From the NCBI GenBank assembly GCA_030428385.1, contig JAUIDY010000057.1, positions 1 to 38,642 on the forward strand: a stretch of DNA of 38,642 bases. The letters are read 5' to 3'. The notes below the pieces were generated by a model. That model had not been told where the DNA came from, searched no databases, and saw nothing but the letters and a program-made list of their open reading frames with translations. Position 1 is the stretch's first letter, and the number at the start of each line of letters is the position of its first letter. The position numbers were made by a program, and so were the translations under genes. This document shows positions 25,978 through 37,202 of the stretch, piece after piece. The stretch is from Rhodothermia bacterium (GTDB taxonomy: Bacteria > Bacteroidota > Rhodothermia > Rhodothermales > JAAAOL01).

Positions 25978-28761
25978 TTATTTGAGCAACACCATCCGCT
26001 GCGTTTTTCGGAAAGAACCGGCTTCCAGTTGATAAAGGTAGAGGCCCGACGGCAGGTTGTGGGCGTCGAACACCACGCGGTATACCCCCGGAGCCAATGT
26101 TTCATCCACGAGTTGCTGCACGGCTTGGCCCAGGGCGTTAAACACACGCAGGCGCACGGCGCTTGTCTCTTTGACTTCGAAGCGGATGGTGGTTTCGGGG
26201 TTGAACGGGTTGGGGTAGTTGGCGTGTAGCCGAAACGCACCGGGAATGGAATCGCCATCTCGTTCTACCGCCGTGGCCAGCGCTTCAATGTTGACAAGGA
26301 TTTCGATGATGTCATCGTCTTCGTTTGGGTCATCGTTGTCCGGCGCCGAGGCTTCGAAAAGGACCGAAGCGTCCGGGTTGGCCTTGTCGGCGTCGAGCGT
26401 AAAGGAACCCTGATACGCCTCGCCTGCTTCTGAAAAGCCGCCCGTGAAGGTATACGTGATCCGGTTCGTGCCTCCGGGAAAACCTTCGGGATCAACCTCC
26501 ACCTCCTTCATTTCATCGTTCGTGTCTACGGGGGTGGCAGTGCCGTTGGCAACAAACAGTCCGGTACCAAGGATGGGGTTCTTCCAATGCGGTGAGGTAG
26601 TGGCCGTAACCTTACAACGATCTGCTGCCTGATCGGGGGTACAGGAGAAAGAAAAGGTGACCGTGTCGCCCTCTTTGACGCTATTGTTCGAGGCAAATGC
26701 TTCAAGCGTAAAATCGATGTTGGTTTTGGGCTCCACCACGGTCGTGACTACCGCGACGTTGTTCTCTCTATTTGGGTCGCCGGGAAATCCGATCACTTCT
26801 ACCTCGTTGCTGACCATGCCCACCTGTTTTACAACGGCGTTATAGGTGGCCGATTCGCTTTCGCCTGGCTCAAGGATAGCGGCATGGCGACATTGCATGG
26901 TGGATAGAGGTCGCCCCGTGTCGTCGTCGGTGGCGGTGCCCAGGGTGCAGTTGATGGGTACAGAATCGGCGACAAATCCGAGTGAATCCGCAAAGACAAG
27001 GTCGTCGGTCTCGACTAAAAAAGCAGTTTCTGGCCCATGATTCGTAACCGTAACCGTATAGCTCAGCGTGTCACCCACCAGAACTTGCGAGGCCGAGGCC
27101 GTCTTGGTAACCGACAGGTCGCTGCCGCCGCGTACGAGCGTGAAGACGCGCGCTGTGTTGTCGGATATAGTTCGATCAAGCTGACTCGAAGATACCTGAA
27201 CTTGATTGGATACTTTTTTGGTAGAAGACGCGGGCAGGTCAAGGGCTTGAACAACGACCTGGTAACGCACCGTGACCTCCTTGTTTGCGCCCAGCGAACC
27301 CAGGGTACATGCAATCACGCTGAGTTCGGCATCGCCCGTTCCAGGGGCACACCCCGAGGGAAGTGAGTCAAGGACAAACGTCAAGGAGTCGGTATAAACC
27401 TGGTCGGTCAGCATCACATTGGTGGCTTCATCAGGACCAAAATTGGTGATGGTCACCTCATACCGGAGCGTATCCTGAACAAATACGGTGTCAATGGGCA
27501 TTGCTACGTCATCAGAGCGAGGCAAGACGTCGAGGATGGTTTTTTTAACAACAAGGTCTGCCAGGGGTAAGGCATAGATCTCGATTCCATTAGTGTTGTT
27601 GCCGGGGTTGGGGTCGTCGGTGATGGACGTAACGGTGGAGGCGGCAGTGACGAATCCGGATTCTTCGGTGATGAGCTTCAGGCGACAAGCGAACGCATCG
27701 CCATTGTCCAGCAGATCGGCTTCCCATTGCACCGTGTTGTCATTAGGCATCGTGGGCGTGGCGCGCTCGCCACAGGCATCAACACTTTCGGTGAGCACCC
27801 TCAATTTCCCGTTACCATCAAGCGCGATGGTGACGATGACCATCTCTGCATCGTCGGGGCCATGGTTGGTCGCGGTTACATCCACATCCAGCGTATCACC
27901 GACGTTGACGTGCAGTGTGTCATCCTGGGCCATTTTATTCACGGAGGCATTCAGCAAGATACTGAGGTCGGCGCTTTGTGGAATTGCCACGTTGCCAAAG
28001 TCAATGTCAGCCGTGGTGGCCCCGGCGTTGACCGTTGCGGCATGGGCTCCGGTTTGGGGGAAGGTTTGTTGCCACCCGTTTTGGTTCACCTCGCGTACCG
28101 TGTAAGTGCCCGCATTGAGGTCGTTGATTTGATAGGTGCCATCGGCGCCCGTGGTGGCCGATGGCTCGCCGCCATCAGCCTGTCCGTTGTCGTTTTCATC
28201 GACATAGATGGTCCACCCGGCCAGGCCGGGCTCTCCGCCCTCGCGGGTGCCGTTCTGGTTGAGGTCGTGCCACTTGGTTCCGCTGATGCTTCCGGGAGAG
28301 GCTCCGCCGCCCTCCACGTTCACCGTCCCTTCGAGCGTGTTGTTGCCGGGGTTGGGGTCATCATTACTCTGGCCCACTGTGGCGGTGAATGTTTGCGGGC
28401 CGCCTGCATCAAACTGGAACTGGATAAAGATCTCTGAGCTACCACGCACCACATCCCGCGTACACACGGCTTCTTGTGGGCCGTTGAGAACACACGCGAG
28501 GGGCTGCGTCGGGTGCACGGGCGTCACGCCCAGAAACGTGACACCCGCCGAGGCGGTAACGGTTAATACGGCATCGAGTGCATCTGCCGGCCCCGACTGA
28601 AAGGCGGCAAAGAGATCCAGCACCTGTCCGACCTGATACGGCGGCGGTTCGGTAAGGCCCAGCGAGGGTTGGCTGTCGGTGGGTTGGGCATAGAGCGGCG
28701 AAACGGACGAAGCGCTGAGGAAAACCAGAACAACAAGCCCGAAGAAGCGAAGGGGGAGCAT
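25978..28761 (-). CDS. Secreted DUF11/SdrD-B repeat protein with type IX sorting domain
   Basis: 927 residues. Signal peptide FFGLVVLVFLSASSVSPLYA. An SdrD-B-type Cna_B module (about 157-258: GTKWHDLNQNGTREGGEPGL, YVDENDNGQADGGE, DLNAGTYTVREV) carries calcium-loop-like DxNxDG patterns. Three DUF11 (CARDB/DUF11-like) repeats follow, each opening ADLS/ADLV/SDLS and containing VGDTLSYTVTVTNHGP-type strands. The last 86 residues (842-927) are a type IX secretion type A sorting domain (NYPNPFNPETTIRFEV ... GLYLYQLEAG ... KTQRMVLLK). It is a large surface or released adhesin-like protein. Repeats are Asp- and Asn-rich, consistent with calcium stabilisation. Start ATG has no clear ribosome site. Confidence 0.92.
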   Translation of the reverse strand: MLPLRFFGLVVLVFLSASSVSPLYAQPTDSQPSLGLTEPPPYQVGQVLDLFAAFQSGPADALDAVLTVTASAGVTFLGVTPVHPTQPLACVLNGPQEAVCTRDVVRGSSEIFIQFQFDAGGPQTFTATVGQSNDDPNPGNNTLEGTVNVEGGGASPGSISGTKWHDLNQNGTREGGEPGLAGWTIYVDENDNGQADGGEPSATTGADGTYQINDLNAGTYTVREVNQNGWQQTFPQTGAHAATVNAGATTADIDFGNVAIPQSADLSILLNASVNKMAQDDTLHVNVGDTLDVDVTATNHGPDDAEMVIVTIALDGNGKLRVLTESVDACGERATPTMPNDNTVQWEADLLDNGDAFACRLKLITEESGFVTAASTVTSITDDPNPGNNTNGIEIYALPLADLVVKKTILDVLPRSDDVAMPIDTVFVQDTLRYEVTITNFGPDEATNVMLTDQVYTDSLTFVLDSLPSGCAPGTGDAELSVIACTLGSLGANKEVTVRYQVVVQALDLPASSTKKVSNQVQVSSSQLDRTISDNTARVFTLVRGGSDLSVTKTASASQVLVGDTLSYTVTVTNHGPETAFLVETDDLVFADSLGFVADSVPINCTLGTATDDDTGRPLSTMQCRHAAILEPGESESATYNAVVKQVGMVSNEVEVIGFPGDPNRENNVAVVTTVVEPKTNIDFTLEAFASNNSVKEGDTVTFSFSCTPDQAADRCKVTATTSPHWKNPILGTGLFVANGTATPVDTNDEMKEVEVDPEGFPGGTNRITYTFTGGFSEAGEAYQGSFTLDADKANPDASVLFEASAPDNDDPNEDDDIIEILVNIEALATAVERDGDSIPGAFRLHANYPNPFNPETTIRFEVKETSAVRLRVFNALGQAVQQLVDETLAPGVYRVVFDAHNLPSGLYLYQLEAGSFRKTQRMVLLK

Positions 28762-28886: not shown

Positions 28887-31532
28887 TTACTCATACCGCA
28901 GGCTTTTCACGGGGTCGGCGAGGGCGGCTTTAAGGGCTTGATAGCTCACCGTCATTAGCGCGATTCCCAGTGCCAGCACACCCGCTAGCACGAACACGCT
29001 GGCACCCAACTCAATGCGGTAGGCGTAGTCGTCCAGCCAGCGCTGCATCAGGAAATAGGCAACCGGGAGACCCACCAAAAAGGCGATACCGACCAGCTTG
29101 ACAAAATCCTTCGACAGCAGAGCGATGATGCTCGGGATCGACGCACCCAGCACCTTGCGTACGCCGATTTCGCGGGTGCGTTTTTCAGCCGTGAAGGAGG
29201 CCAGCCCGAACAGGCCGAGGCAGGCCACTAAAAGGGCCAGCACCACAAACGCTGAGAGTACCTGTCCGAGTTGTTGCTCGCTGCGGTAGAGGCGGTTGTA
29301 CACGTCATCGAGGAAACGGTAGGTGAAGGGGCGGTGCGCGGCAAACTGTCCCCATACGGTTTCCAGGTGCGTCATCGCGGCGCGGGTGTTGCCGGGGGCA
29401 AGGCGGACGATCAGGTGGTTGGCCCAGCGCGGTTCATACCAGATCGCCAGCGGCTCAATTGTCTCATGCAGCGAACGGAAATGGAAATTATTCACCACGC
29501 CCACCACTTCGCCGCTGTTCACATCAACGGCCACCCGGCGGCCGATGGCGTCTTCGGCTTCCCAGCCGAGGCGGTTGAGCATGGCCTCATTCAGGATATA
29601 CTGATACGCGCCCGAGTCGGGGGCGGGCGGATGCTCGGGGAAAGCACTGCCTGCCAGAACAGACAAGCCCAGCCCATCCACAATGCCCGCGTCCACCGGC
29701 ATGCCTTTGACGTACAACTCTTCTTCTTTGGACATCCCTTCCGCCTGAAAGCCTGAGGTCCAGCCGAGTTCACCGGGAATCTGGTTCACGGCGGCGGCGG
29801 CGATGACCGACGGGCTTTGCTTAAACATCTCCACCATGGCGGGATACTGCTCGCCCAAAATCGGGTCGTTTAGCGGCAGCACCACCAGGTGTTCCATGTC
29901 GAACCCAAGGTGCTGGTCGCTGATAAACCGAAGCTGATTCATCACCACAAACGCCCCGATGATCAGCACCGCCGAGATGCCGAACTGCAAAACGACGAGC
30001 CCTTGTCGCAGCCAGGCGGTACCGCGCCCCGCATGGATCCGTCCACGTAGCACGCGGACGGGCTCGAAACGGGAGAGGTAAAACGCCGGGTAGCTGCCCG
30101 TGGCGAGGCTGACCACGACGAACAGGGCGACAAGGAGCAGCATGAGCGTTGGGTGCAGCAGGGCGGAAAAGGTAAGCGCCTTGCCCGAAAGGGCGTTAAA
30201 CCAAGGCAAGCCCAGGGCAAAAAGCCCCACCGCCAGCACCAGTGCAGCGAGGGTCAGCAAGACCGACTCGCTGTAAAACTGCCCCACCAACTGCGCCTTG
30301 TACGCCCCCAGCGCTTTGCGCAGGCCCACTTCCTTCGCCCGCTGGGCCGAGCGAGCCGTGGCGAGGTTCATGTAGTTGATGCACGCAATGAGCAGGATCA
30401 GCAGCGCTACGGTGGCAAAGCCATACACCGAGGTCGCATCGCCCGTCGGGTCGAGGTCGTAGGCCACGTCGGTGCGCAGGTGGATGTCCGTGAGAGGCTG
30501 GAGGACGAGGTTGCGCGGCTCGTCGCCTGCGGCTTCCAGGCGGGCGACAAGGGCATCGATTTTCTGGGTGAGGGCCGTTGCCGAAGCGCCTTTTCCCAGC
30601 CGTACATAGGTGAAGAAGTTGGCGGAGCCCCACGTCTCGGTCGAGGCCCAGTACGTACGGCTGGCAAACGAGGCGAGGAAATCGAAGTGATAGTGCGAGT
30701 GTAGCGGCACGTCTGCCATCACGCCCGTCACCTCAAACTCCTGGTCGTTGTTGCGGACGATGGTTTGCCCTACAGGGTTTTCCTCGCCGAAGTATTTGCG
30801 GGCTGTGGTTTCGGTGAGGACAACGGTGTTCGGGCGGTTCAGCGCGGTTTCGGGGTCGCCATGCAGCAACGGATGGGTAAAAACCTCAAAAAACGTCGAG
30901 TCAGCAAAGTAGAAGGCGTTGTTGTCGAACACCTGCTCGCCAACACGTACCACGCCACCATGCGCGTCGAGACGGGTGGCGGCTTCGACTTCGGGAAACT
31001 CACGCAGGAAAAGCGGGGCGACGATGGTGGGCGTCAGGCCGAGTTCGCCTCCAAACGTTTCCTCGTACAGGTTCACCCGATAAATGTCGTCGGCGTGTTC
31101 ATGGTAGCGGTCGAAACTGAGTTCGTCGCGCACGTACAGCGAGAGCAGCAGGCAACACGCTACGCCCACCGCTAGGCCCACGATGTTTATGAGGCTGTAG
31201 CCGGGGTTGCGTTTTAGATTACGCAGGGCGACGGTGAGGTAGTTCTTGAACATCGCAAGTCTCCAGTAAAGTTCATCGGTAAGGGTGTGCTGGCGGCGGT
31301 GCTTGCCCCAGTACACCTTCTCGTATTCTGCGCGGCCCCCCTCGAGGTCGCCCATGTTGTCCACCGCAAGGCGGAAGGCGGCCTCGTCATCGCGTCCCTG
31401 TGCCTGCTGGTGGGCGACGAAATCGCGCAGGTGGCGCTCCAGTTCGTCGAGGTCGTCGTTGAGGAAGACGCGGCGGTAGGCGTGGAACTGTCGCCAGGTG
31501 GCAATGGCCGTTTCGAGGTTGAAGCTACCCAT
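28887..31532 (-). CDS. FtsX-type ABC permease, paralogue 1 of 3 (most downstream)
   Basis: 881 residues. Residues 1-90 are a soluble prefix (FNLETAIATWRQFHAYRRVF ... DELYWRLAMFKNYL), then a first helix (about 113-134), a long extracytoplasmic MacB_PCD domain, FtsX core 1 (LLILLIACINYMNLATARSA), a second extracytoplasmic domain and FtsX core 2 (AEKRTREIGVRKVLGASIPS). It ends SLRYE like its two siblings. No ATPase domain. Starts 8 nt after the stop of paralogue 2. Its C-terminal coding sequence is more diverged from the others than their shared junctions. Probably exports or extracts lipids or lipoproteins with a separately encoded ATPase. Substrate unknown. Confidence 0.94.
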   Translation of the reverse strand: MGSFNLETAIATWRQFHAYRRVFLNDDLDELERHLRDFVAHQQAQGRDDEAAFRLAVDNMGDLEGGRAEYEKVYWGKHRRQHTLTDELYWRLAMFKNYLTVALRNLKRNPGYSLINIVGLAVGVACCLLLSLYVRDELSFDRYHEHADDIYRVNLYEETFGGELGLTPTIVAPLFLREFPEVEAATRLDAHGGVVRVGEQVFDNNAFYFADSTFFEVFTHPLLHGDPETALNRPNTVVLTETTARKYFGEENPVGQTIVRNNDQEFEVTGVMADVPLHSHYHFDFLASFASRTYWASTETWGSANFFTYVRLGKGASATALTQKIDALVARLEAAGDEPRNLVLQPLTDIHLRTDVAYDLDPTGDATSVYGFATVALLILLIACINYMNLATARSAQRAKEVGLRKALGAYKAQLVGQFYSESVLLTLAALVLAVGLFALGLPWFNALSGKALTFSALLHPTLMLLLVALFVVVSLATGSYPAFYLSRFEPVRVLRGRIHAGRGTAWLRQGLVVLQFGISAVLIIGAFVVMNQLRFISDQHLGFDMEHLVVLPLNDPILGEQYPAMVEMFKQSPSVIAAAAVNQIPGELGWTSGFQAEGMSKEEELYVKGMPVDAGIVDGLGLSVLAGSAFPEHPPAPDSGAYQYILNEAMLNRLGWEAEDAIGRRVAVDVNSGEVVGVVNNFHFRSLHETIEPLAIWYEPRWANHLIVRLAPGNTRAAMTHLETVWGQFAAHRPFTYRFLDDVYNRLYRSEQQLGQVLSAFVVLALLVACLGLFGLASFTAEKRTREIGVRKVLGASIPSIIALLSKDFVKLVGIAFLVGLPVAYFLMQRWLDDYAYRIELGASVFVLAGVLALGIALMTVSYQALKAALADPVKSLRYE

Positions 31533-31610
31533 CGTTGCAGCTACTCATAACGGAGGCTTTTGACCGGGTCGGCGAGGGCGGCTTTGACGGACTGGTAGCT
31601 CACCGTCAGC
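31236..31610. repeat. Direct repeat copy A at permease junction 2/1
   Basis: A 375-nt segment covering the last codons of paralogue 2, the 8-nt gap and the first 99 codons of paralogue 1. It differs from copy B at about 20 positions by hand count. Confidence 0.85.
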
Positions 31611-34204
31611 ACCGCGAGTACAAGCACGATGGCACCCGCGACCACATAATTCCACCCGCCATTGGGCACCCGGTAGGCATAACTTTGCAGCCACCAATCG
31701 GCGAGCAGATAGGCCACGGGGAGGGCAATCAGGAACGAGACGCCCACTACCAACAGCACTTCGCGGTTGAAAAGCACCAGGATATCCGCAACGCTGGCCC
31801 CCAGCACCTTGCGCACGCCCATCTCTTTGCGGCGTTTCTCGGCGTTGAACGCCGCCAGGCCGAACAAGCCCAGGCACGCGATGAAGATGCCAATGATGGA
31901 AAAGGCGGTAAACACGCGGCGCTGCCGCCGGTCGCTGTCATACAGTTGCGCGAATTGCTGATCGAGGAAAAAGGCTTCCAGCGGATACAGCGGTGAAAAG
32001 GTGCCCCAGGCCTGTTCGATGGCCGCCATCGTTTCATCCAAATGCGCGGTCTCCACCTTGACCAAAATCTCGCGGTAGTCGGCGTTCATGGCCACCACGA
32101 GAGGGGCAATCGGCTGGTGCAGCGACTCGAAGTGAAAGTCGGCCACCACACCAATCACTTCTTTGGCGGTGGAGTCTCGAAACTGATTCTCGAACCGTTG
32201 GCCGAGGGCTTCCTGGGGCGTCCAGCCAAACAGGTCGGCGGTGGTCTTATTGATGATGACGGCCCGGGCCGAGTCGGTCGGGAAGTCGGGGTCAAAGTCG
32301 CGCCCGGCCAGCATCTGCACGTCCATCACCTCGCCAAAAGCGGCGTCGGTGTACAGCGTCCGCAGCGTATAGGTCTTCTCCCACTGTTCTCCTGCGCGAA
32401 ACAGGAATGTGTCGAAAAAACCACCGGGCGTGCCCGACATCACGCTCGACACCTGGACGCCGGGGAGTTGCTCGATGGTTTCCTGAAACGTCTTGAGGTG
32501 GGGCCGGATGTCGCCGTTGTTGATGGCAATGTTCATCAGTTGCGCGGGCTGGAACCCGAGCTGCTTGTCGGCGACGTAGTCGAGCTGCCGGTTCACGATC
32601 AGGGTACCGATGATGAGCAGGCTGGAGATGGTGAACTGAAAGACGATGAGCCCGCGCCGCACCACCACCTGCGAGGATCCGAAGCTGATTTTTTCCTTGA
32701 GCGCCTTCACGGGCTCGAACGACGAGAGGAACAGAGCCGGATACGCGCCTGCCAACAAGCCCGTCAGCAGCAGAAAAACGACAGCAAAGCCCACCACTTC
32801 GACAGAGAACAGATCGACGACCAGCCGCGTGCCGATGACCTGCTCAAACCAGGGCCGGAGGAGATAGACCGTGCCAAAGGCGAGCACGCCTGCTGTGGCG
32901 GTCAGCAGCAGGGCTTCGCCCAGAAACCATGACATCAGGTGCAGTCGCCACGCACCGAGGGTTTTGCGAATGCCAATTTCCCGCGCCCGGCCCACCGAGC
33001 GTGCCGTCGTCATGTTGACAAAATTGATGCAGGCCACCCCGATGATGAGCAGCGCAATCACCATAAACAGATAGATCACGGCTTTGCTGCCGTGGATGAC
33101 CCGCCAGTCGTCCGTGTCGCCATCGAAATAAATCGCTTCCAGCGGTTGCAGCATTAGGTCGATGCGGCGGTTGTTGCGCGCCATATCTTCCCCGAAGTAT
33201 TGATCCATAAACCTAGGGAGTTGGGCTTGCAAGGAAGTCGGGTTTACCTCGGGAGACAGCATCACGTACGTGAACAAGGTGTTCCACCACCATTCGCTAT
33301 AGAAGCGGGCTTCGCGGACGGTTTCCATGCTGATAAGCAAATCGAACGCGACGTGGGAGCGGGTATGCGGCGGCTGCCGGAAGACCCCGGTCACTTCAAA
33401 TGTCATATCGCCGTCCACCAGGAGGGTTTGCCCGACCGGATTGCGTGTCCCGAAATACTTTTGGGCAGTGGCTTCAGAGAGCACCATCGTGTTTGGACGG
33501 GCCAAGACGGTTTCCGGATCACCTGCGAGGAGGGGATAGGAAAAGACCTGGAAGAAGTTGGCGTCGGCGATAGAGAGCCGTTGCTCCAAAAACTGGTCGT
33601 CCCCGATGGTTACGACGCCGTCAGATGGCATCAGGCGGGTGGCCTGTTCGATCATGTCGGGAAAGTGATCGGCGAGGGCATCCCGGAATGGGGCCGAGGT
33701 AATGCCTACCCGATTCAGTCCGTCGTCGTCCTCCACCACCCGCACCACCCGATAGATCCGGTCGCCCTGCGCATGGAAGGTGTCGGTGCGTAATTCGTTC
33801 TGGACGAACAGGTAGATAAACAGGCAGCACACCCCGCCCAGCGCAAGCCCCGCAACGTTGATGAGGCTGTAGCCTTTCTGCTTGATAAAATTGCGGACGG
33901 CAATCTTGAGGTAGTTCTTGAACATGGAGAGTCTCCAGTAAAGTTCATGCGTCAACGTGTGCTGGCGGCGGTGCTTGCCCCAGTACACCTTCTCGTATTC
34001 CGCGCGGCCCCCCTCGAAGTCGCCCATGTTGTCCACCGCAAGGCGGAAGGCGGCCTCGTCATCGTGTCCCTGTGCCTGTTGGTGGGTCACAAAATCGCGG
34101 AGGTGGCGCTCCAACTCGTCGAGGTCGTCGTTGAGGAAGACGCGGCGGTAGGCGTGGAACTGCCGCCAGGTGGCAATGGCCGTTTCGAGGTTGAAGCTAC
34201 CCAT
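31541..34204 (-). CDS. FtsX-type ABC permease, paralogue 2 of 3 (middle)
   Basis: 887 residues with the same plan as its neighbours: prefix (MGSFNLETAIATWRQFHAYR), first helix (GYSLINVAGLALGGVCCLFIYLF), first extracytoplasmic domain, FtsX core 1 (LLIIGVACINFVNMTTARSV), second extracytoplasmic domain, FtsX core 2 (AEKRRKEMGVRKVLGASVAD) and ending SLRYE. The extracytoplasmic parts differ strongly from both neighbours, suggesting a different partner or cargo, while the prefix and the very C-terminus are almost identical. Starts 8 nt after the stop of paralogue 3. No ATPase in the window, so a separate ABC subunit is required. Confidence 0.94.
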   Translation of the reverse strand: MGSFNLETAIATWRQFHAYRRVFLNDDLDELERHLRDFVTHQQAQGHDDEAAFRLAVDNMGDFEGGRAEYEKVYWGKHRRQHTLTHELYWRLSMFKNYLKIAVRNFIKQKGYSLINVAGLALGGVCCLFIYLFVQNELRTDTFHAQGDRIYRVVRVVEDDDGLNRVGITSAPFRDALADHFPDMIEQATRLMPSDGVVTIGDDQFLEQRLSIADANFFQVFSYPLLAGDPETVLARPNTMVLSEATAQKYFGTRNPVGQTLLVDGDMTFEVTGVFRQPPHTRSHVAFDLLISMETVREARFYSEWWWNTLFTYVMLSPEVNPTSLQAQLPRFMDQYFGEDMARNNRRIDLMLQPLEAIYFDGDTDDWRVIHGSKAVIYLFMVIALLIIGVACINFVNMTTARSVGRAREIGIRKTLGAWRLHLMSWFLGEALLLTATAGVLAFGTVYLLRPWFEQVIGTRLVVDLFSVEVVGFAVVFLLLTGLLAGAYPALFLSSFEPVKALKEKISFGSSQVVVRRGLIVFQFTISSLLIIGTLIVNRQLDYVADKQLGFQPAQLMNIAINNGDIRPHLKTFQETIEQLPGVQVSSVMSGTPGGFFDTFLFRAGEQWEKTYTLRTLYTDAAFGEVMDVQMLAGRDFDPDFPTDSARAVIINKTTADLFGWTPQEALGQRFENQFRDSTAKEVIGVVADFHFESLHQPIAPLVVAMNADYREILVKVETAHLDETMAAIEQAWGTFSPLYPLEAFFLDQQFAQLYDSDRRQRRVFTAFSIIGIFIACLGLFGLAAFNAEKRRKEMGVRKVLGASVADILVLFNREVLLVVGVSFLIALPVAYLLADWWLQSYAYRVPNGGWNYVVAGAIVLVLAVLTVSYQSVKAALADPVKSLRYE

Positions 34205-34282
34205 CGTTGCAGCTACTCATAGCGGAGGCTTTTGACCGGGTCGGCGAGGGCGGCTTTGACGGACTGGTAGCTCACCGTCAGC
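33908..34282. repeat. Direct repeat copy B at permease junction 3/2
   Basis: 375 nt spanning the end of paralogue 3, the identical 8-nt gap CTGCAACG and the start of paralogue 2. Spaced about 2.67 kb from copy A in the same orientation. Confidence 0.85.
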
Positions 34283-36852
34283 CACGCGATCACGAGGGCG
34301 ATGGCCCCGGCACCGACGAAGACACCGACGCCCAGGGTGATATGGTCGGCGAAGTGGTCCAGCCAGCGCTGCACGAGGACATAGGCCACCGGAAGCGCGA
34401 TGACGATGCCCAGCAGCACCAGCCGGGTCACCTCGCTCGTGAGCAGGCGCACCAGCGTGGGCACGCTCGCGCCGAGGACCTTGCGCACGCCGATTTCTTT
34501 CGTGCGCTGCTCGGTGGTGAAGGCGACGAGTCCGAACAGGCCGAGGCACGAGATGAAGATGGCGATGAACGCGAAGATGTTGGCGAGGCGGCCCATGACG
34601 GTTTCGCTGCGGTACGTCGCCTCGAATTCTTCGTCGAGGAAGCTGTAGTCGAACGGGTATTCCGGGTTGAACCGCTGCACCGTGGCTTCGAGGGTCGCGA
34701 GGGCTTCGGCGGTTTGGCCGGGCTGGGTGCGCACATAGACCTGCCGCGTATCCGAAGGCGACAGCATAATCACGACCGGTTCTTCGGGCTCATAAAGCGA
34801 GTTCATGTCGAAGTTTTTCACCACCCCGATCACGGGGCCCGTGCGCCTCCAGAAACTGAGCGTGGTGCCGATGACCTCCTCGCCAAGGAGTTGCGCCGTT
34901 TCTTCGTTGATGAGGAAACCGGCGCTGTCTGCGCCAAAGGCTTCGCCGAAGGCCCGCCCCGCCACCATCTCCATGCGCATCGTCTCGATGAAGTCGTGCG
35001 CCACGCTCATGATGTAAAACTCATGCACGGCTTCCGGGTCTTTCCCTTCCCAGGTTACCCCACCCGTGCTGCTGTTGATTTCGAGTGGACTGGAGCGCAC
35101 CGCCGTAACATTGGCGATGCTGGGTTCGGACAACAGGGCTTGTTTGATCGTGGGAAATTGTTCTTGGAGCGCACCTTCCTGAGGCAGCGCGATGATATTT
35201 TCGCGATCCAACCCGATGTTTTTGGAGCGCAGGTAGTCCATCTGCTGATAGACCGCCACCGTGCCGGTAATGAGCAGCATCGAAAGCCCAAACTGGAACA
35301 CGACGAGGCTTTTGCGCAGCAAGGCGGCACGGGAGCCCGGGCGGAACGTGTTGCGCAGCACCACCAGCGGGTGGAGCGACGAGAGGTAAAGGGCGGGATA
35401 GCTGCCTGCGAGCAGGCCCACCACCATCGCCAGGGCGAAGCCGCCCAGCCAAAAACTACCGCCCAGGGCACCGAGGGAGAGAGATTTGGTGGTGAGGGTG
35501 TTGAAGAGCGGCAGCAGGGCCGCGACCGTGCCCAGGGCCAGCAAAAACGCGACGCCTGCTAACAGCAGTGCTTCTCCCAAAAACTGTGTAATCAGCGAGC
35601 CTTGGTTGGCACCTACTGCCTTACGCACCCCGATCTCGCGGGCCCGCTTGGCGGCACGGGCCGTGGCGAGGTTCATAAAGTTGATGCAGGCAATCAGCAG
35701 CAGGAATACGGCCACGATGGAGAATATGCGGACATACACAATGCGCCCGCCCACCAACTCGCCATTTTCAAACTCACCATGCAGATACATGTCTTCATAC
35801 GGCTGGAGGAAAAGCTGCTCGTTCGCGCCTTCCTCATGCGCCATCACCACGCCCGCAATTTGTTCACTGACGGCGCTCGCAGACGCATCCTCGGCCAGTT
35901 TCACATAGAGCGGAAAACTGTTGTTGCCCCACTGTTCGACCCAGGGGTTTCGGTCGAATAATTCCTGAATGGGAATAATCACATCGGATTGGAAGGAGGA
36001 GTGGCGGGGTGGATCGGCAATAACTGCACTGATTGCAACCTCTTTGCGGTGGTTAATCGTCAAGGGTTGCCCGAGCACGTTGCCCTGTTGCTGCCAGTCG
36101 TCGCCAAACAGCCTCCGTGCCATGCGGTCGGTGATAACAGCGCTGTTGGCGGTAGAGAGGGCGGTTTCGGGGTTGCCCTGCAGGAAGGGGAGCGCAAAAA
36201 CGTTAAAAAAATCGGCGCTGGCGTGAGTGCCCGATTCGCGGAAGTTTTGTGTGCCGCTGGTGATGATGAACGAATCTCCCAACGAATGCACGGCCTCTTC
36301 AATAGCGGGGTATTCGGTTTCGAGGACTTCGGCCAGCGGCTTCGAGGTCGACGTCCAGGTATAAATGTCTCCTCCAATATTCACATGCCGCTTCACCTGA
36401 TGGATCTGGTCGCCCTGTTCCAGGAAACGATCATGCTGCAACTCATCCTGCACCCAGAGAAAAATGAAAAAACTGGCCGCCAGCCCTACTGCCAGCCCGG
36501 TGATGTTGATAAATGAATAGCCTTTTTGTTTGCGCAGGTTGCGCAGGGCGACGGTGAGGTAATTCTTGAGCATCGCAAGTCTCCAGTAAAATTCGTCGGT
36601 GAGGGTGTGTTGGCGGCGGCGCTTGCCCCAGTACACCTTTTCATATTCCGCGCGGCCCCCCTCGAAGTCGCCCATGTTGTCCACCGCCGCCCGAAAGGCG
36701 GCTTCGTCATCCATGCCTTCTGCCTGCTGGTGGGTCACAAAATCGCGGAGGTGGCGCTCCAACTCGTCGAGGTCATCGTTGAGGAAGACGCGGCGGTAGG
36801 CGTGGAACTGCCGCCAGGTGGCAATGGCCGTTTCGAGGTTAAAACGCGGCAT
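34213..36852 (-). CDS. FtsX-type ABC permease, paralogue 3 of 3 (first after padR)
   Basis: 879 residues from the ATG at 36852, chosen because MPRFNLETAIATWR aligns with MGSFNLETAIATWR of the siblings. An ATG at 36864 overlaps the padR stop (ATGA) and would add MRTA; it may be the real start by translational coupling. Plan as for the other two: prefix, first helix (YSFINITGLAVGLAASFFIF), extracytoplasmic domain, FtsX core 1 (LLLIACINFMNLATARAAKR), second domain and FtsX core 2 (EQRTKEIGVRKVLGASVPT). The open frame upstream past 36864 is shadow over padR. Ends SLRYE. Confidence 0.93.
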   Translation of the reverse strand: MPRFNLETAIATWRQFHAYRRVFLNDDLDELERHLRDFVTHQQAEGMDDEAAFRAAVDNMGDFEGGRAEYEKVYWGKRRRQHTLTDEFYWRLAMLKNYLTVALRNLRKQKGYSFINITGLAVGLAASFFIFLWVQDELQHDRFLEQGDQIHQVKRHVNIGGDIYTWTSTSKPLAEVLETEYPAIEEAVHSLGDSFIITSGTQNFRESGTHASADFFNVFALPFLQGNPETALSTANSAVITDRMARRLFGDDWQQQGNVLGQPLTINHRKEVAISAVIADPPRHSSFQSDVIIPIQELFDRNPWVEQWGNNSFPLYVKLAEDASASAVSEQIAGVVMAHEEGANEQLFLQPYEDMYLHGEFENGELVGGRIVYVRIFSIVAVFLLLIACINFMNLATARAAKRAREIGVRKAVGANQGSLITQFLGEALLLAGVAFLLALGTVAALLPLFNTLTTKSLSLGALGGSFWLGGFALAMVVGLLAGSYPALYLSSLHPLVVLRNTFRPGSRAALLRKSLVVFQFGLSMLLITGTVAVYQQMDYLRSKNIGLDRENIIALPQEGALQEQFPTIKQALLSEPSIANVTAVRSSPLEINSSTGGVTWEGKDPEAVHEFYIMSVAHDFIETMRMEMVAGRAFGEAFGADSAGFLINEETAQLLGEEVIGTTLSFWRRTGPVIGVVKNFDMNSLYEPEEPVVIMLSPSDTRQVYVRTQPGQTAEALATLEATVQRFNPEYPFDYSFLDEEFEATYRSETVMGRLANIFAFIAIFISCLGLFGLVAFTTEQRTKEIGVRKVLGASVPTLVRLLTSEVTRLVLLGIVIALPVAYVLVQRWLDHFADHITLGVGVFVGAGAIALVIAWLTVSYQSVKAALADPVKSLRYE
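36556..36840. repeat. Partial direct repeat copy C at start of paralogue 3
   Basis: 285 nt matching copies A and B over the prefix-domain coding region, more diverged (for example the segment around 36688-36725), and stopping at the padR boundary. Confidence 0.75.
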
Positions 36853-36860
36853 GGCGGTTC

Positions 36861-37202
36861 TCATAGGGCGGGGCGCAGCGCTGGGCCCCAGAGGCTCGCC
36901 AGAATCGCGCTCAGGTCGAGCCAGTCGTGCTTGGCCTTGGCGAGGGCTTTTTCGCCTTTTGCGGTGAGATCGTAGTATTTGCGGCCCGGTCCCGAGTCCA
37001 CATGCCGCCACGAAGCCGTCGCGAGGCCCCGGTTCTCCAGGTCGTGCAGCAGTGGGTACAGGCGGTTGGCGGTCCACGCGATACGGCCCTGGGACAGGTC
37101 TTGCACACGCTGGATGATTTCGTAGCCGTAGGTGGGGCCGTTGGCGAGCATGGCAAGCACCAGGGGCTCGAATGAGGCCGCAAGCAGGGGTTTGGGAAAC
37201 AT
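36861..37202 (-). CDS. PadR-family transcriptional regulator
   Basis: 113 residues. PadR proteins are winged-helix repressors that often control a following transporter. Here FEPLVLAMLANGPTYGYEIIQRVQDL is the helix-turn-helix start, then ANRLYPLLHDLENRGLATASW (recognition helix and wing), GRKYYDLTAKGEKAL (wing) and a C-terminal helix. The stop codon overlaps ATG 36864 of the first permease, so expression of the operon is coupled. PadR plus permease with a prefix domain is a recurring arrangement in Acidobacteria and Rhodothermia-type genomes. A palindrome 42-61 nt upstream is a candidate autoregulatory operator. The inducing ligand is unknown. Confidence 0.93.
   Translation of the reverse strand: MFPKPLLAASFEPLVLAMLANGPTYGYEIIQRVQDLSQGRIAWTANRLYPLLHDLENRGLATASWRHVDSGPGRKYYDLTAKGEKALAKAKHDWLDLSAILASLWGPALRPAL

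Follow-up and report, generated by a model that had tools for sequence, protein, structure and literature searches.

HAAS domains are paired with PadR-family regulators, and these pairs include HAAS domains fused to FtsX/MacB_PCD permeases (mSystems 2024, PMC11237479). In the model proposed there, HAAS relays a membrane signal to PadR, which would offer an alternative to two-component signalling. Two further descriptions touch the same proteins: the perm_prefix_1 module (NF038403), and the ADOP permeases (TIGR03434) with their paired PadR (TIGR03433), which share two MacB_PCD/FtsX halves, PadR pairing and many paralogues. The module, its pairing with PadR and its fusion to FtsX/MacB permeases are all known, as is the permease family, which can reach high copy numbers: 102 copies were reported in an acidobacterial genome (PMC10564751), and two Dyadobacter genomes have 28 and 33 (PMC11573002).

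Here we analyse a PadR-led permease operon in a window of 38,642 nucleotides, the whole stretch of DNA studied, from a Rhodothermia bacterium. As in the HAAS–PadR pair, an N-terminal helical cytosolic module sits on an FtsX/MacB permease and the PadR gene adjoins. In contrast to that pair, several permeases with unrelated bodies share one PadR, their modules probably evolve in concert, Pfam HAAS is unmatched and GxP, the motif described for HAAS, is mostly missing. From perm_prefix_1 the window copies differ by scores of 23.9–29.9 bits, just below the cut-off of 30. ADOP membership was considered and rejected on scores: the window permeases reach 304.5, 322.1 and 342.7 bits against a cut-off of 622, and the window PadR reaches 73 against 102 for TIGR03433. 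They are related to these families, but are not members.

The operon and its N-terminal module

The operon lies on the minus strand. Its first gene encodes the PadR-family regulator (36861..37202; Pfam PadR 1.5e-21), the end of which shares 4 nt with the start of permease C according to the ORF coordinates. Permease C (34213-36864) is the first permease after PadR; permease B (31541-34204) follows, and permease A (28887-31532) is the last of the three. Each contains two MacB_PCD and two FtsX stretches, all above the curated Pfam cut-offs, and these form what we call the body (34213..36573 in C, 31541..33925 in B, 28887..31253 in A). The N-terminal module, hereafter the prefix, comprises 97 codons in C (36574..36864), up to the internal methionine of MLKNYL, and 93 codons each in B (33926..34204) and A (31254..31532), where it was recognised by a prefix profile. 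The same 8-nt gap, CTGCAACG, separates C from B (34205..34212) and B from A (31533..31540). No ABC ATPase gene was identified among the neighbouring proteins scanned, scans for promoters and terminators gave no signal above chance, and a scan for related loci found just two relatives. Directly downstream of permease A, at 25978-28761 on the same strand, lies the gene of a secreted protein that has DUF11 repeats and a type IX secretion sorting domain. The window start truncates another member of this permease family, one without the prefix, at 1-1890, also on the minus strand.

All 15 prefixes tested match perm_prefix_1, the best at 5.9e-13. As whole proteins the window permeases score 24.0, 23.9 and, for permease C, 28.5 bits with this model, and prefix A alone scores 29.9, against the cut-off of 30; the prefix profile finds the module of permease C at 4.7e-44. 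Pfam HAAS (PF22564) finds nothing in the genome at E 0.01 and nothing among the prefixes at E 5. The conserved glycine is present in the prefix residues and GxP is mostly absent. A structural model of the prefix, built from three sequences, is all helical with a mean pLDDT of 72; compared with solved structures it gives no fold match with E < 1, and the prefix profile finds chance matches only among the sequences of solved structures. The full-length model of permease C, from a single sequence, has a pLDDT of 41, too low to be of use. Since Pfam HAAS has no match, we label the prefix HAAS-like by context and size rather than a HAAS member.

The linkage to PadR can be followed in 153 full permeases from the same genome and its relatives, a sample that is not random, its members having been picked because they resemble the prefix or A, B and C. 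A PadR gene lies directly upstream of 35 of the 48 prefix-bearing permeases, all 35 being first in their operon, and of none of the 105 prefix-less ones. Nine of the remaining 13 prefix genes are downstream members of PadR-led arrays; the other four lead their operon and have no detectable PadR neighbour. By the criterion used for HAAS, prefix genes have a PadR-like gene in their neighbourhood. Prefix-specific co-evolution with PadR was also considered and is not claimed here, as a mirror test does not set the prefix apart from the body (partial correlation with PadR 0.31 for the prefix and 0.245 for the body, both positive). The relatives further contain very long arrays of prefix-less permeases (L080-L083, G009:C23:221500-297000; L084-L085, G021:C20; L086-L087, G031:C8), the one in G009 with at least 17 genes, and no sampled gene of these arrays has PadR directly upstream.

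Prefixes and bodies of permeases A, B and C

The junctions of the operon are repeated. Within the interval -75 to +300 relative to the start codon, the C/B junction (33905..34279, minus strand: end of C, gap and B prefix) and the B/A junction (31233..31607, minus strand: end of B, gap and A prefix) differ at 22 of 375 nt, close to the roughly 20 differences that the original prediction had counted by hand. The sequence CTGCAACGATGGGTAGCTTC, made up of the 8-nt gap and the 12 nt after it, is present exactly two times in the window, where 0 occurrences are expected. In a codon alignment, the first 93 codons of A, B and C are 87-93% identical at the nucleotide level and 81-86% identical at fourfold sites. 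Their bodies share 51-53% of nucleotides and 45-50% of fourfold sites, which amounts to saturation; the expected divergence of the interiors, uneven along the genes, is thereby borne out. The step in identity falls at about codon 94, at the methionine of M(L/F)KNYL, which is the native start of prefix-less permeases. Because the step sits at this start, the homogenised front is a separate module and not merely a gene end: it is a distinct cytosolic module of about 93 codons, perm_prefix_1-like and resembling HAAS domains.

The similarity proposed for both gene ends holds for the N-terminal part, up to about codon 94, while the C-terminal match is less special, the tail being conserved family-wide. 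C-terminal tails are 93-98% identical for non-last genes and 78-83% for the last gene. We considered tail homogenisation as evidence and dropped it, since the tails of prefix-less arrays are conserved too.

The origin of the bodies was examined in trees from which the tail had been removed, using FastTree on the bodies and the slower IQ-TREE on a 61-row subset. With full support, the body of permease A groups with six permeases from other families (56-66% identity), none of which has the prefix; these are its nearest relatives. That of permease C groups with two prefix-bearing permeases (G006C491 and G006C502) and a prefix-less one (G030C93). Permease B is placed elsewhere, and its closest sequence in the genomes searched reaches no more than about 42%. 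A single clade of the A, B and C bodies is rejected by 564 log-likelihood units (p-AU 6.6e-57, 29 rows), and array mates in general are scattered over the body tree. By their sequences, A, B and C are not diverged duplicates; their bodies come from different permease lineages.

This result overturns the starting idea of a duplicated triplet with diverged interiors. In its full form, the idea holds that a plain tandem duplication diversified inside and was homogenised at its ends, and that cassettes are exchanged to vary transporter specificity. Two of the four bodies of another array of this genome (C123) may indeed be duplicates, and the junction repeats, which lie in register and in frame, have sufficient length for homologous recombination. 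With A, B and C outside a single clade, we regard this account as very improbable; its cassette-exchange part is taken up again below.

Mapped on the body tree, prefix presence switches 31 times with FastTree, at least 21 of these changes being forced by supported branches, and 17 times (at least 8 forced) in the IQ-TREE subset, gain and loss being indistinguishable in such counts. A and B may have acquired the prefix on joining the operon, to which the lack of a prefix in the relatives of A points, or their relatives may have lost it.

Prefix homogenisation in this genome and its relatives

The genome carries three further prefix arrays, C123 with four genes and C239 and C50 with two each. 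Within these arrays and that of the window (C23), prefixes are 77-93% identical at the nucleotide level (77-90% in C123, C239 and C50), compared with a mean of 58% between arrays and about 50% at fourfold sites. Bodies show 49-60% within arrays and 50% between them. In the prefix tree each array of this genome forms one supported clade. The contrast is also found in other families of the same phylum: in G317 the prefix is 85% and the body 51% identical at the nucleotide level, and the pattern recurs in G171. Homogenisation is not universal, since it is weak or missing in the prefix pairs of G008C70 and G006C575 and slight among the G241 copies.

Junctions are likewise array-specific. Both C23 junctions have a common extension, an array-specific indel, with the 8-nt gap, absent from the other three arrays of the genome. 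In those arrays (L047, L048 and L049) the next ATG lies inside the conserved RYE-stop codons of the upstream gene, as TATGAGTAG or TATGAATAA, so that a coding overlap is built into the conserved C-terminal end. In the four-gene array L047 (genes 3004, 5678, 8376 and 11035) the histories of bodies and prefixes disagree: the closest bodies are those of 5678 and 11035 (54% aa), the closest prefixes those of 3004 and 11035. Another prefix-bearing permease is truncated by a contig end (L051, G000:C122:1-1614), and the genome may hold one prefix array beyond those assembled. Prefix-less arrays of the same genome (L050, G000:C42:6000-25999; L052, G000:C47:1-12500) show, in most gaps between genes, a hairpin-capable repeat of about 85 nt (GGCTATCGGCTGTCAGCTATCAGC...GCTGATAGCC...), and a second intergenic repeat type of about 135 nt.

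Could selection on the prefix alone, without sequence exchange, keep it uniform? All prefixes of one array would face the same PadR, and strong purifying selection is conceivable on that ground. Several observations speak against it. At fourfold sites the C23 prefixes keep their 81-86% identity, against about 50% between arrays, and the non-coding gap is identical too. In the pairs whose bodies are closest to each other, probably inherited vertically, the prefix is usually the faster-changing part: prefix and body identities are 63 vs 79, 72 vs 77, 63 vs 70 and 50 vs 65% aa. It is the other way round for array mates of this genome, with 76-93% aa for the prefix and 36-55% for the body. Constraint alone is thus insufficient, and the homogenised synonymous sites contradict a reading by selection only, to which we give hardly any credence. 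Prefix-less tandem arrays are not homogenised to a similar degree at the N terminus, where the first 33 codons are 58-71% identical on average.

The timing of the homogenisation is indicated by two genomes of different genera, G171 and G241, which carry orthologous three-gene PadR arrays in the same order (bodies 85, 87 and 66% aa). Over its first 45 prefix codons, the middle gene of G171 is 86% identical at the nucleotide level to one of its array mates, but its identity to the orthologous gene is 65% (19 vs 47 differences of 135; Fisher p 1.1e-4). Paralogues here are more alike within the array than to their orthologues, the mark by which concerted evolution is recognised. Homogenisation in G171 therefore postdates the formation of the array, which points to gene conversion and not solely to array assembly. 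Concerning cassette exchange, the orthologous arrays kept gene number and order across genera while the prefixes converted, and this comparison across genera revealed no rearranged copy; swapping or deletion of cassettes as a device for specificity, part of the original prediction, finds no support in these arrays.

The window array bears marks of the same process. Among A, B and C, the prefix sites at which one copy is the odd one out are clustered, forming 11 runs among 36 sites, a value that 0 of 20,000 shuffles reach. Such patchiness is as expected from several short conversion tracts. Fourfold-site identity, the clustered mosaic, the shared indel and the re-homogenised orthologous array together uphold the proposal of gene conversion or recombination at the gene ends.

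A further scenario needs no continuing conversion: either the prefix was donated once to bodies that had just been recruited, or the part between the MLKNYL start and the LRYE-stop end was replaced by another body. The event would be recent enough for the prefixes to have stayed similar with no later conversion. The prefix-less relatives of A and the position of the joint, at the native start codon of prefix-less permeases, agree with a donation; both body ends are conserved in the family and could act as recombination arms in an exchange. The body identities do not fit a recent event: no sampled sequence is more than 66% identical to the body of A or 42% to that of B, so that their recruitment was not recent as far as the sampling reaches. 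Moreover, the G171/G241 array was assembled before the G171 prefixes were homogenised, and the C23 prefix differences are patchy and not of one uniform age. We consider this scenario unlikely, although less so than the two preceding ones.

Probable concerted evolution of a proposed regulator-coupling module

Prefixes are homogenised array by array on mixed bodies and are tightly linked to PadR, and in a second family they were re-homogenised after the array had formed. The explanation that we favour, and hold with good though not full confidence, is concerted evolution of the PadR-coupling prefix, driven by gene conversion inside the operon, whereas the permease bodies that carry it have mixed origins. 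As in tandem genes that are known to evolve in concert, parts of neighbours are alike within an array and different between arrays. The difference is that here the process appears confined to the regulator-coupling module and the junction, on bodies that are not sisters.

In molecular terms, one PadR would control an operon of three FtsX/MacB-type permeases, and the N-terminal cytosolic module of each would couple it, at the membrane, to this single PadR. Gene conversion would copy stretches of the prefix between neighbours, together with the gap next to it and possibly the end of the preceding gene. The bodies behind the joint are of different lineages and escape homogenisation. From the HAAS–PadR work (PMC11237479) and the linkage reported here, we infer that the prefix may relay the state of each permease to PadR, several permeases thereby feeding one repressor. 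The same published work makes it plausible that conversions which keep the prefixes matched to the PadR of their operon are favoured. A broader proposal, which we offer tentatively and rate slightly below even chances, sees the prefix as an exchangeable adaptor: any FtsX/MacB body that gains it would be wired to the PadR of the operon, and conversion would keep the adaptors matched, leaving the sensors or transporters behind them free to vary.

Our search of open-access papers turned up no description of a coupling module that evolves in concert on bodies of mixed origin. For tree building, the consequence is that full-length trees of such permeases mix two histories. The HAAS–PadR signalling model becomes directly testable, as every array offers matched and mismatched prefix–PadR pairs. 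Finally, the findings suggest a route by which many unrelated membrane proteins may come under the control of a single local regulator, in that a short cytosolic module stays near-identical across the operon and the remainder of each protein is free to differ.
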